Shown: piece after piece, positions 53,266 through 61,538 of the stretch
Numbering within the stretch: the stretch's first letter is position 1
Layout: every line of letters starts with the position of its first letter
Source: an uncultured Pelagibacteraceae bacterium
GTDB lineage: Bacteria; Pseudomonadota; Alphaproteobacteria; Pelagibacterales; Pelagibacteraceae
Direction: 5' to 3'
Assembly: GCA_902601895.1 (NCBI GenBank)
Contig: CACKOU010000001.1
Location: forward strand, 1-64,000
DNA length: 64,000 nucleotides
Program-made: the position numbers and the translations under genes
Notes under the pieces: model-generated
The model's input: only the letters and a program-made list of their open reading frames with translations
Database searches by the model: none
Told to the model about the DNA's origin: nothing

Positions 53266-53814
53266 TTAATCTTTAACAAACATCACAGTCAACTCTGCAA
53301 CTTTAATTCCAAATTTTGTCATTTTGGCTCTGTTGATAGCTACTCTTTCGTCTTGCATAAATATCCAATCATCAAAAGTAATTTTGATATTTTTTCCTTT
53401 CACTGGAACTAACAAAACATACTCAAATTTAAATGCTGGGCCATACGAATACCCTCTAGCTTTACCAACTACATCGCCTGCAGTTCCCTCATAATTATGA
53501 TCATCAATTTTATCTATTACCCATTGCCTATTTTGTATTTCACCGTCATTCCAAATAAATTTTTCGTCTAATATAAGTTGTTTGCCATCCCATTTACCGT
53601 CCAGGTCTGCTGAAAATTGTCTTGTAACTTTACCTGATCTGTTTTGGAGTATGCCCCAAGCTTTGACGTTCCCACTTAAATATTCCTCAATTATTAATCT
53701 TGGTTTTTGATCTTTAAAATCTTCTGGTTTCATAGATTGATTATTTATACAGCTTGTAATTAATCCTGTAAAAATTATCAATAAAAATACTTTAAAAAAT
53801 TTTCTGTTAATCAT
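53266..53814 (-). CDS. DUF3833 lipoprotein
   Basis: 182 aa with a lipoprotein signal peptide ending LITSCIN (lipobox LITSC), then the DUF3833 body with the conserved WGILQNRSGKVTRQFSADLDGKWDG, DEKFIWNDGEIQNRQWVI, YEGTAGDVVGKARGYSYGPAF and DDWIFMQDERVAINRAKMTKFG. The family has no known catalytic role and is often coded near cyclopropane synthase-like genes in proteobacteria. It is 1 base from the Cfa gene, so part of the same unit. Confidence 0.85.
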   Translation of the reverse strand: MINRKFFKVFLLIIFTGLITSCINNQSMKPEDFKDQKPRLIIEEYLSGNVKAWGILQNRSGKVTRQFSADLDGKWDGKQLILDEKFIWNDGEIQNRQWVIDKIDDHNYEGTAGDVVGKARGYSYGPAFKFEYVLLVPVKGKNIKITFDDWIFMQDERVAINRAKMTKFGIKVAELTVMFVKD

Positions 53815-56997: not shown

Positions 56998-59868
56998 CTA
57001 TGCTGCGTCTTCTTTAAACTCATCCATGCTAGGACATGTACAGAATATATTTTTATCTCCATAAACATTGTCTACCCGGGCAACTGGAGGCCAAAATTTA
57101 TTTTGTTTTAGAAAACTTGCAGGATATGCTGCTTCTTGTCTTGAATATTTATGTTCCCATACATCTGATGATAATTCAGTATCAGTGTGAGGAGCGTTTT
57201 TAATTGGATTATCAATTTTATCAAATTCACCTGATTTAATTTTTTCAATTTCTTGTTTAATCTTAATTAAAGTGTCACAAAATCTATCTATTTCTGATAA
57301 CCCTTCACTTTCAGTTGGCTCTATCATCATAGTGCCAGCTACAGGCCATGACATAGTTGGTGCGTGAAATCCAAAATCTATCATTCTTTTCGCAATATCT
57401 TCTTCGGTTACCCCTGTTTCAGATTTAATATTTCTAATATCAATTATGCACTCATGCGCAACATTGCCATTTGCACCTTTGTATAAAATTGGAAAGTGAT
57501 CTTTTAGTCTATGAGCAATATAATTTGCGTTTAAAATTGCAACTTGAGTAGCAAGCTTTAATCCTTCTGATCCCATCATTTTAATATACATCCAAGAGAT
57601 TGATAGAATACTTGAGCTACCCCAAGGAGCTGCTGATACTGCTCCAATTCCACTTGTTGGGCCGCAATCTTTTATTACTGGATGATTAGGCAGATAAACT
57701 TGTAAATGTTTTTTACAAGCTATAGGTCCCATTCCAGGTCCGCCACCACCGTGTGGAATACAAAATGTTTTATGCAGATTAATATGACAAACATCTGGAC
57801 CAAAATTTCCAGGCTTTGCAACTCCAACAAGGGCATTTAAATTTGCTCCATCCATATAGACCTGTCCACCATGTTTATGAACTAACTCACAAATATCAGT
57901 TATTTTTTCCTCAAATACTCCATGGGTAGATGGGTAAGTTACCATTAAAGCTGCGAGATTTTCTGAATGTTGCTCTACTTTTTTCTTTAAATCATCGAAA
58001 TCTACATTTCCCTCTTTATCACAATTAACAACAACCACTTTCATTCCAACCATTTGTGCGCTTGCTGGATTTGTACCATGTGCCGAACTTGGGATTAAAC
58101 ATATATTACGATGAGCTTCATCTCTATCTAGGTGGTACTTTCTTATAACCATTAGACCTGCATATTCCCCTTGAGCGCCTGCATTAGGTTGTAGAGAGAC
58201 ACCAGAAAAACCTGTTATAGATCTCAACCAATTTTTTAAATCAGTAAACAAATCTCTAAAACCTTCCATTTGTTCAACAGGAACAAAAGGATGAGGTTCT
58301 GCAAATTCTTTCCAAGAAATCGGGATCATTTCAGCAGCAGCGTTTAACTTCATTGTGCAGGAACCAAGTGCTATCATAGTTCTATTCAATGCTATATCCT
58401 TATCCTCTAGCTTTTTAAGATATCTAAGCATTTCAGTTTCTGAATGATATAAGTTAAAAATTGGATGCTCTAAATATTTTGAAGTTCTTAATAAATTTTT
58501 TGGTAAATTGGGTAATTTAACTGAAGGATCCTCTTTTTTTATTGATTCTGCAGCATTAAAAATTTTTAATAATTGATTTACTCTATAAATGTTTTTTCTT
58601 TCATCAAAAGAGACAGCAAGCATTTCAGAATTTACTTTTCGTATATTAACTTTCTGATTTAGAGCATTTTTATAAATTTGATCAGTCTTTTCTTTGGTAA
58701 TAATTGTAACAGTATCAAAAAAATAATCAGAATAAATTTCATAACCTGACTGTTTTATTTTATCAGCAAAACTTTTTGCTAATTGAGAAACTCTTTCAGA
58801 AATATTTTTAATTCCATCTGGACCATGATAAATAGCATATGCTGCTGAAACAATTGCTAATAAAGCTTGTGCAGTACAAATATTGCTTGTCGCCTTATCT
58901 CTTCTAATGTGTTGCTCTCTAGTTTGTAAAGATAATCTGTATGCCTTTTTACCATGTCTATCAACTGACACACCAACGATTCTACCAGGCATTGATCTCT
59001 TATACTCATCTTTAGTTGCAAAAAATGCTGCATGTGGACCTCCATACCCCATCGGTATTCCAAATCGCTGAGAGCTTCCTACTGCTATATCAGCACCAAG
59101 TTCTCTTGGAGTTTTTAATTTTGCTAAAGCTAATAAATCACAAGCTAATACAGCCTTACCGTTTTTTTTATGAATTTTGCTAATTGCTTCACTAGGATCT
59201 TTAATATCTCCTAAAGTTCCAGGATATTGTAAAATTCCACAAACTAAATCCTCTTTTAATTGATCTAAAACTTCATCTTCTTTTCCAACTAAAACTTTTA
59301 AACCCATTGGTTCAGCTCTAGTTTGAATTACATTTATTGTTTGAGGATGGCAACTCTCAGATACAAAAACTAAATTACTATCTTTTTTATTTAATCTATG
59401 ACTAAGACCCATAGCTTCTGCTGCTGCTGTACCTTCATCCAATAAAGAAGCATTAGCGATATCCATTCCAGTAAAATCAACAATCATTTGTTGAAAGTTT
59501 AATAACATCTCAAGTCTTCCTTGAGCTACTTCAGGCTGATAAGGTGTATATGATGTATACCAACCTGGATTTTCTAAAATATTTCTTAAAATTACATATG
59601 GCGTATAAGTTCCATAATAACCCATTCCAATAAAATTTGAGTAAACATGATTTTTTTTTGAAATTGCTCTTAATTTTCTTAATGCCTCATATTCTGAATT
59701 AGACTCTCCGATATTAAGCTCACCTTTAAACATTATTTTTTCTGGAACAGTGTTATTCATTAAATCATCCATTGTTTGATAATTTAATTCTTTTAACATT
59801 TTTGATTGATCTTCTTTAGAAGGTCCAATGTGTCTTTTTATAAAATCTTTTTCTGAATTTGGTAACAT
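56998..59868 (-). CDS. gcvP: Glycine dehydrogenase (decarboxylating), P protein
   Basis: PLP subunit of the glycine cleavage system; releases CO2 from glycine and passes the aminomethyl group to GcvH. The single-chain 956-aa form shows KRHIGPS, IGMGYYGTYTPYVILRNILENPGWYTSYTPYQPEVAQGRLE, and the PLP lysine in HINLHKTFCIPHGGGGPGMGPI (near 699). The 3' end is 5 bases beyond the amine oxidase start. Start overlaps the gcvH stop by 1 base. It is read with gcvT-gcvH from the riboswitch-controlled leader. Confidence 0.97.
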   Translation of the reverse strand: MLPNSEKDFIKRHIGPSKEDQSKMLKELNYQTMDDLMNNTVPEKIMFKGELNIGESNSEYEALRKLRAISKKNHVYSNFIGMGYYGTYTPYVILRNILENPGWYTSYTPYQPEVAQGRLEMLLNFQQMIVDFTGMDIANASLLDEGTAAAEAMGLSHRLNKKDSNLVFVSESCHPQTINVIQTRAEPMGLKVLVGKEDEVLDQLKEDLVCGILQYPGTLGDIKDPSEAISKIHKKNGKAVLACDLLALAKLKTPRELGADIAVGSSQRFGIPMGYGGPHAAFFATKDEYKRSMPGRIVGVSVDRHGKKAYRLSLQTREQHIRRDKATSNICTAQALLAIVSAAYAIYHGPDGIKNISERVSQLAKSFADKIKQSGYEIYSDYFFDTVTIITKEKTDQIYKNALNQKVNIRKVNSEMLAVSFDERKNIYRVNQLLKIFNAAESIKKEDPSVKLPNLPKNLLRTSKYLEHPIFNLYHSETEMLRYLKKLEDKDIALNRTMIALGSCTMKLNAAAEMIPISWKEFAEPHPFVPVEQMEGFRDLFTDLKNWLRSITGFSGVSLQPNAGAQGEYAGLMVIRKYHLDRDEAHRNICLIPSSAHGTNPASAQMVGMKVVVVNCDKEGNVDFDDLKKKVEQHSENLAALMVTYPSTHGVFEEKITDICELVHKHGGQVYMDGANLNALVGVAKPGNFGPDVCHINLHKTFCIPHGGGGPGMGPIACKKHLQVYLPNHPVIKDCGPTSGIGAVSAAPWGSSSILSISWMYIKMMGSEGLKLATQVAILNANYIAHRLKDHFPILYKGANGNVAHECIIDIRNIKSETGVTEEDIAKRMIDFGFHAPTMSWPVAGTMMIEPTESEGLSEIDRFCDTLIKIKQEIEKIKSGEFDKIDNPIKNAPHTDTELSSDVWEHKYSRQEAAYPASFLKQNKFWPPVARVDNVYGDKNIFCTCPSMDEFKEDAA

Positions 59869-60248
59869 TATGCTGACGTCTCCTTTGCAAATTTTTCATA
59901 TTCTTCTTTACTCATAAGACTATCCATTTCAGATTTGTCTTTTATTTTAAGTTTAAAAAACCATGCAGACTCTTCTGGGTCTTCATTTATTTTTGATGGA
60001 TCATCAACTATCATTTGATTTGTATCTATAACTTCTCCACTAACAGGAGTGTAAACATCGCTAGCAGCTTTCGTTGACTCAACCACTCCAGCAGTTCCAT
60101 CTTTATCAACATTTGAACCTTTCTCTGGGAGTTCAGCAAAGACTATATCCCCAAGCATTTCTGTTGCATGCTTGGTTATTCCAATTGTAGCTTCTTCTCC
60201 ATCAAGTTTAATCCACTCATGTTCTTTTGAATATTTAACTTCAGACAT
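59868..60248 (-). CDS. gcvH: Glycine cleavage system H protein
   Basis: Lipoylated shuttle between P, T and L proteins. The 126-aa protein has [40 protein letters not shown] and the lipoyl lysine in [19 protein letters not shown] (near 60). The track starts at 60260, but ATG 60248 gives [12 protein letters not shown] and follows a GGGGAAAT sequence; the start overlaps the gcvT stop by 8 bases. Lipoamide dehydrogenase is elsewhere. Confidence 0.97.
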
Positions 60249-61347
60249 TAATTTCCCCATTTACGTAATTTTTTTTATAAAACGGTAAGTTACAAATATT
60301 TGCAGGAATTTTTTTTCCTCTAACTTCAAGAAATATTTTTGTATTTACAGTTGAATAACTATTATCGACATATCCCATTGCTATTGGATGTTCAACGCTT
60401 GGTCCAAATGTGCCGCTTGTTACTTTCCCAATTTCTTGATTTTTATCATTGTAAATTTTGGTATTTCCTCTAGCAATTACTTTGCTGTCTGGTTTTATGC
60501 CAACTCTCAATTTTTTTACTCCGCTTTGAAATTGGTTTTTTAAAACTTCTGATCCAACAAATTCAGTCTCAATTCTGCTCTTAGGTATTGCCCATTTTAG
60601 ATTAGCTTCGATAGGACTTGTATCGTTGTCTAAATCGTTTCCATACAAGCAGAGTCCAGCTTCCAATCTTAATGTATCTCTTGCTCCTAAACCAATCAAT
60701 TTAGATCCATTTTCTATCAAACTTTCTACAAAAATTTCAGCATCACTATGTTTTATAGAAATTTCAAATCCATCCTCACCAGTATAACCTGATCTAGTTA
60801 TATATACTTTTTCATTTTTATAGACATAGTTGTTTCCGTTCATAAATTTTAGACTATCACAACCAGGTATAACTTTATTTAAAACATTTTTTGCTTCGGG
60901 GCCCTGTAATGCAATTAATGACAATGAATCATCAAGATTTAATTTATATTGATTATCAAGTTTAGATTTTATTACTTCATAATCATTATACTTGCACGCA
61001 GCATTCAAGATAATTAAAAATCCATCAGATGTTTTGGTAATTATTAGATCGTCCTGAATTCCTCCTTTGTTATTCATTAAAAATGAATACTTGCTTTGGT
61101 TAGTTTTCAATTTTTTCAAATCTGCAGGAAAAATCTTCTCAAGATCATTTGTAAGATCATCGCCACCCGATATAAATAATTGACCCATATGAGAAACATC
61201 AAAAATTCCAGAGTGTGAACGTGTGTATTTATGCTCTTGTATAATTCCATCTTTATATTGGATGGGCATTTGATATCCAGCAAACTCTACAAGCTTTGCG
61301 CCGTACTTGATGTGGAGGTTATTTAACGATGTTTTTTTTATACTCAT
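60241..61347 (-). CDS. gcvT: Aminomethyltransferase (glycine cleavage T protein)
   Basis: Transfers the methylene group to THF, giving 5,10-methylene-THF. The 368-aa protein has [54 protein letters not shown] and [21 protein letters not shown] with the conserved Arg and Asp. It is first in gcvT-gcvH-gcvP. The AUG is 15 bases beyond the tandem glycine riboswitch, and the AGAG plus AUG sequence is complementary to the riboswitch linker, so translation is probably glycine-controlled. Confidence 0.97.
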
Positions 61348-61431
61348 ATTAACTCTTTATGCCCCCTCTGTCTTTTTGCCTGAGAGATTTGCTCCTTCGG
61401 CGAGAATAATTCTCTTTCCAGAGTTAATATG
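61345..61431 (-). promoter_or_regulatory. Putative RBS-sequestering helix of the glycine switch
   Basis: On the mRNA strand CAUAUUAACUCU (61431-61420) is perfectly complementary to AGAGUUAAUAUG (61356-61345), whose last three bases are the gcvT AUG and whose AGAG is the likely Shine-Dalgarno region. The first segment overlaps the 5' strand of aptamer-2 P1 (CUCUG), so the two helices exclude each other. This is the simplest OFF/ON model: without glycine the RBS is hidden, and with glycine P1 forms and frees it. Confidence 0.65.
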
Positions 61432-61501
61432 TACGGTCCATTTGCCTGAGAGTTTCCGGGGTGGTTGCTCCTTCGGCGCTACAAAAGTAGTCTCTCCCGT
61501 A
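61362..61501 (-). ncRNA. Tandem glycine riboswitch (gcvT leader)
   Basis: Two glycine aptamers on the minus strand. Aptamer 1 (61501-61432 or so) is closed by ACGG/CCGT and has GCCGAAGGAGCAA and CUCUCAGGCAAA. Aptamer 2 (61423-61366) is closed by P1 CUCUG/CAGAG, with GCCGAAGGAGCAAA and CUCUCAGGCAAAAAGAC. The duplicated GCCGAAGGAGC and CUCAGGCAAA cores are diagnostic. A 12-base segment, 61420-61431, is the exact complement of the gcvT RBS-AUG (61345-61356), including the P1 5' strand of aptamer 2. SAR11 gcvT glycine riboswitches are known in the literature. Confidence 0.97.
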
Positions 61502-61538
61502 TAAATTCTTATAACATAACTAATATAAATTTATAGCT

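Follow-up and report, generated by a model that had tools for sequence, protein, structure and literature searches.

Tandem glycine riboswitches in front of gcvT and glcB have already been published for SAR11 bacteria (Kazanov et al. 2007, PMC2211319; Meyer et al. 2009, PMC2704228), and the element and the genes given in the accessible portions of these papers are identical to ours. Those portions report the aptamers and the genes, and contain no description of a helix between the linker and the start region, of its covariation or of the missing kink-turn linker. A translational tandem glycine riboswitch of gcvT has been described in Neisseria gonorrhoeae (PMC13104608, 2026). It is a gcvT ON switch, as is predicted here for SAR11, and in its OFF state a sequence of aptamer 2 pairs next to the start codon, as we propose for SAR11. 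The pairing partners differ, however. In N. gonorrhoeae nucleotides of aptamer-2 P3a, P3 and P1 pair upstream of the start codon, whereas in SAR11 the linker and the P1 5' strand would pair with the Shine-Dalgarno-like element and the AUG itself; the gonococcal pairing sequence is poorly conserved across its genus, while that of SAR11 is conserved and covaries across the family. The typical gcvT tandem riboswitch of other Alphaproteobacteria resembles that of SAR11 in its aptamer cores and regulated gene, but its spacer from linker to start is longer, at roughly 110–190 nt. Both the riboswitch and the sequestration of the ribosome-binding site are known, and relative to them the linker/start-codon switch, conserved in SAR11, represents a compact variant with good support.

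The gcvT leader and its two aptamers

The window (the whole stretch of DNA analysed, 64,000 nucleotides) carries on its minus strand a tandem glycine riboswitch 5' of gcvT. The features are as follows.

61508..61516, minus strand: putative extended -10, TGTTATAAG, read from the sequence; TG(T)TATAA-like in many relatives
61424..61509, minus strand: glycine aptamer 1 (Rfam RF00504), cmscan 69.2 bits, E 2.5e-12
61420..61431, minus strand: CAUAUUAACUCU, the linker together with the 5' portion of aptamer-2 P1; proposed as the anti-start strand of the OFF helix and complementary to 61356-61345 over all 12 bases
61366..61423, minus strand: glycine aptamer 2, covered together with aptamer 1 by the tandem model RF03166
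61345..61356, minus strand: Shine-Dalgarno-like GAG plus gcvT start codon, AGAGUUAAUAUG, target strand of the proposed OFF helix and complement of the linker; pairing probability 0.92–1.0
60241..61347, minus strand: gcvT, 368-aa ORF, NCBIfam GcvT equivalog match over the cut-off
59868-60260: gcvH, second gene of gcvT-gcvH-gcvP, NCBIfam match over the cut-off
56998-59868: gcvP, third gene of gcvT-gcvH-gcvP, NCBIfam match over the cut-off

Aptamer 1, whose P1 is formed by 61501-61497 with 61436-61432 in the minimum-free-energy fold, stands above the RF00504 gathering score of 32 bits; aptamer 2 by itself falls below it in the window, and the second aptamer is above the cut-off in many relatives. 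The model RF03166 (glycine-GGAnGA variant) aligns with both aptamers end to end at 79 bits (E 6.3e-17), which is short of its gathering score of 110 and does not place the element in that family. On its sequence, we read the leader as a tandem RF00504 glycine riboswitch in which aptamer 1 exceeds the gathering score and an adjacent second aptamer core is present. Aptamer-2 P1 consists of CUCUG (61423-61419) and CAGAG (61370-61366), and the gcvT AUG lies 18 nt past it. In twelve close relatives (L006, L011, L013, L019, L032, L033, L034, L039, L043, L046, L049, L053) the aptamer-1 P2 and everything upstream differ from the window (GGGAGAAUGGUUUGAAAUAAAACCUGCCGAAGG) and the remaining riboswitch and gcvT are nearly identical to it, a pattern suggestive of a recombination breakpoint within aptamer 1.

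The gcvT gene is the first of gcvT-gcvH-gcvP, the neighbouring ORFs of which abut or overlap. Its ATG occupies 61347-61345, and an in-frame TAA stands 9 nt 5' of it (61359-61357) with no start codon in between. With the putative extended -10, transcription would begin at or close to 61501, where aptamer-1 P1 has its first base; a promoter consensus scan that demanded a -35 as well gave no match. In dRNA-seq data from the Red Sea the 5' end of the SAR11 transcript is the first nucleotide of P1 or lies at most 15 nt upstream (PMC5069720).

Conservation and covariation of the linker:start helix

The preliminary description had claimed a perfect 12-base pairing between the linker and the gcvT start, and this is what the sequence contains: 61431..61420 on the minus strand (CATATTAACTCT) and 61356..61345 (AGAGTTAATATG) are perfect reverse complements, the AUG included, and the match can be extended at neither end. 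The claim that CUCU belongs both to this helix and to aptamer-2 P1 is borne out by the positions. The ribosome-binding site that the linker was said to cover is a more modest matter, as the AUG and a GAG are indeed covered but the Shine-Dalgarno-like element amounts to that weak GAG, 5 nt 5' of the AUG. By sequence, fold and covariation the helix has the features of an anti-RBS helix, covering the Shine-Dalgarno-like element and start codon and being mutually exclusive with an aptamer helix.

A Watson-Crick helix of 12 bp arose in 0.015% of shuffles of an 18-nt linker against a 32-nt start region, and in 0 of 3000 when a shuffled 163-nt leader was set against a 16-nt start region. With the window's own genes as the background, gcvT is the only one with a 12-base upstream complement of its start region, the next best having 11 and the others at most 9. 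The runner-up is a small gene of unassigned function at 53814 (minus strand), whose 11-base complement falls within the ORF before it, some 100 nt upstream; it is AT-rich and probably due to chance.

Conservation was assessed on 151 gcvT leaders with a parsed start. They were collected by scanning genome contigs for GcvT and by surveying 147 Pelagibacterales genomes; many of them come from near-identical relatives, so that they reduce to 76 distinct leaders and 28 helix types. Within Pelagibacterales the survey found the glycine riboswitch only in the family of the window, in six genera. The linker:start helix is kept in all 151 Pelagibacteraceae leaders of this main set at 8–14 bp, with 12 pairs in 105 leaders, 13 in 28, 11 in 13 and single cases down to 8. 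It ends just upstream of the AUG, without covering it, in 8 of the 151, and in L018, where the start codon is GUG, the variant base is still paired as U-G. One sister genus (g4) has two members with a degraded helix; the lengths found in it run from 12 bp (L116) through 9 bp (L174, L276) and 8 bp (L132) to 6 bp (L274). Under strict filters thirteen genomes of the same genus as the window, at least 92% complete (G028, G044, G056, G074, G082, G088, G115, G121, G123, G125, G134, G144, G146), had no glycine riboswitch match, for which absence of gcvT or the filters themselves may be responsible, and under the same kind of filters no match occurred in any listed genome of the other family of Pelagibacterales.

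With CUC in the linker and GUU in the start as fixed anchors, and hence no fitting of the helix itself, pairs p2–p11 were standard in 74–76 of the 76 distinct leaders and p12 in 69, while the flanking positions p0 and p13 paired in just 12 and 16. When the 28 helix types are aligned with MAFFT, 92.3% of the cells pair and 6 of the 12 pairs show double changes. The preliminary description would have failed had the complement not been conserved or not covaried in relatives, and it withstands this test. The alignment has a covariation score of 0.247, whereas shuffles average 0.109 and 0 of 500 reach the observed value; sliding the partner by 1–3 columns lowers the pairing to 37–48% and the score to at most 0.057. 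The test is conservative, since L169 is one column off in the alignment and was scored as partly unpaired. RNAalifold proposes the helix unprompted. Double substitutions have occurred in separate lineages (CGUAAUAACUCU/AGAGUUAUUAUG, AAUAAACUCUG/CAGAGUUUAUU, AUUAAAACUCUG/CAGAGUUUUAAU, AUUAUAUAACUC/GAGUUAUAUAAU, UUGUAAUAACUC/GGGUUAUUACAA), among them the deep lineages of the L091 group, L158, L116, L169 and L075, and also within a genus (AAAAAUAUAACUC/GAGUUAUAUUUUU, L263 versus L264–L267). Only a few deep lineages supply these double changes, on a tree built from 110 columns and weakly resolved, and the GcvT tree offers too few resolved contrasts for independent-pairs sign tests. Pairs p4–p6 are invariant in the 76 leaders and p2–p3 nearly so, and therefore yield no covariation; aptamer-2 P1 likewise shows none among the leaders.

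The complement might be supposed to have no regulatory role and to be a by-product of separate constraints, namely the CUCUG of P1, the GAG...AUG of the start and an AU-rich filler. Such constraints alone do account for the invariant CUC/GAG core, and the genome is AT-rich, with an 11-bp match, probably due to chance, at another gene of the window. However, p7–p12, which are free of these constraints, covary, and the mean helix of 12.1 pairs for a leader's own linker and start falls to 8.0 when the lineages are mismatched. The second SAR11 glycine riboswitch, which precedes the malate-synthase-like gene glcB, also speaks against this explanation. Its linker, GCAUAACACU, is unlike that of gcvT; in 21 of 24 leaders it forms nine pairs with its own start, AGUGCUAUGC, beside a single constant mismatch (mostly A.C), and the match is absent from the other 3; swapping the gcvT and glcB linkers within one genome abolishes the match, each fitting its own start only. 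The by-product explanation is thus strongly disfavoured, and we regard it as very improbable. One glcB leader (L180, G024:C1:240230-240840) has a single aptamer with an aptamer-1-like beginning and an aptamer-2-like end, as if a deletion between homologous cores had fused the two aptamers and removed the linker. Tripp et al. 2009, cited in several papers, reportedly has a glycine-activated riboswitch in SAR11 as the subject of its title, and may discuss an expression platform for glcB; the other literature searched gave no description of a linker:start helix in SAR11.

A predicted translational switch

Because complementarity between linker and start has been kept while both sequences changed, the helix very probably blocks translation until glycine binds. 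We put the probability that the gcvT leader is a translational ON riboswitch of this kind at roughly 0.8; the dependence of the gcvT RNA on glycine, the ON direction, the effect on translation and the order of strand exchange are what we infer. Without glycine, the linker and the aptamer-2 P1 5' strand would pair over 12 bp with the gcvT start (weak Shine-Dalgarno element and AUG), barring aptamer-2 P1 and excluding the ribosome. The unconstrained minimum-free-energy fold of 61504-61320 agrees with this proposed OFF state: aptamer 1 and aptamer-2 P2/P3 are intact, the 12-bp helix replaces aptamer-2 P1, and the linker:start pairing probabilities listed above are those of the unconstrained ensemble. 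In a transcript that ends before the start region the predicted probability of aptamer-2 P1 is 0.89. P1 can therefore arise first and be invaded later, presumably by the start strand through the eight-base toehold UUAAUAUG. Glycine would hold P1 and block this invasion; its binding, together with aptamer docking, would stabilise aptamer-2 P1, which would reclaim CUCU and leave the remaining eight A/U-rich pairs unanchored, to open alone or to the 30S subunit. With the start open, the gcvTHP operon, and hence glycine breakdown, would be translated.

The earlier proposal that P1 displaces the helix and opens translation is supported by the conservation, the covariation and the predicted OFF fold, but it needs qualification. 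Of the 12 pairs, aptamer-2 P1 contests only 4 directly, so that the eight A/U pairs (CAUAUUAA/UUAAUAUG) could persist beside it, and the toehold could remain paired in the glycine-bound state. In a model that leaves out aptamer docking and Mg2+, forcing aptamer-2 P1 costs 4.6 kcal/mol, and exposing the gcvT start costs 7.5 kcal/mol from the free ensemble without P1 but 3.1 with P1 in place. Opening of the start with glycine bound would therefore have to be completed by the tertiary fold or by the ribosome.

These energies are also what lends some weight to the idea that the helix acts mainly as a constant brake on access to the start, with glycine control exerted elsewhere, for example by Rho-dependent termination or RNA decay on stalled translation: even when P1 is forced, the eight remaining pairs are preferred to a fully open start by about 3 kcal/mol. 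Translational riboswitches commonly couple a block of translation to Rho or decay, which also counts in its favour. No intrinsic terminator was found, however, and since in every leader the CUCU of the helix also serves as the 5' strand of aptamer-2 P1, binding of the ligand must weaken the helix. We consider a brake of this constant kind unlikely. Transcription attenuation, in which the helix would be part of a terminator or antiterminator rather than a translational block, is a mode found in some glycine riboswitches (PMC2258182), but here it appears highly improbable: a scan of the gcvT leader revealed no terminator-like hairpin, no U-tract follows the helix on its 3' side, and the helix includes the start codon.

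A linker without the usual kink-turn sequence and its possible meaning

In tandem glycine riboswitches the kink-turn is made by the leader and the linker (PMC12060979). SAR11 transcripts begin at P1 or at most 15 nt upstream (PMC5069720), so most have little leader with which to build one. Judged on sequence alone, no leader-linker kink-turn (P0) was found in SAR11. Sheared G.A pairs are required for a kink-turn; GA is present in the 11 nt preceding P1 in 39 of 42 linkers from other Alphaproteobacteria and in 0 of 151 from SAR11. Linker:start complementarity in other Alphaproteobacteria is at chance level only, the best helix over the candidate starts having 5–9 pairs, usually 6–8, in 29 leaders across the class. 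The SAR11 linker thus seems to have exchanged the kink-turn role for an anti-start role. In certain small-genome Alphaproteobacteria the aptamer-2 P1 5' strand matches the start region, with GACUC/GGAGUC and 8–9 pairs in five leaders of family f41 (L211, L212, L234, L239, L246) and with UAUUAUUCUC/GAGGAUAAUA and 10 pairs in L213 (f63); these leaders possibly follow the same principle with a longer spacer.

We lean, by a modest degree, towards the view that as the SAR11 leader shrank the linker gave up its part in the kink-turn and came to serve as the entire expression platform, spacer and anti-start strand in one 12-base stretch that was tuned separately for gcvT and glcB, giving a leader of about 155 nt with aptamer 2 inside the loop of its own sequestering helix. 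It offers an example, from a streamlined genome, of an expression platform folded into an aptamer linker, and a naturally occurring tandem glycine riboswitch that lacks the customary kink-turn linker bears on the debate over the cooperativity of the two aptamers. SAR11 are the commonest bacteria of the ocean and many of them are unable to make glycine or serine; the covariation-backed mechanism indicates how such abundant bacteria would start the breakdown of glycine only when glycine is present.
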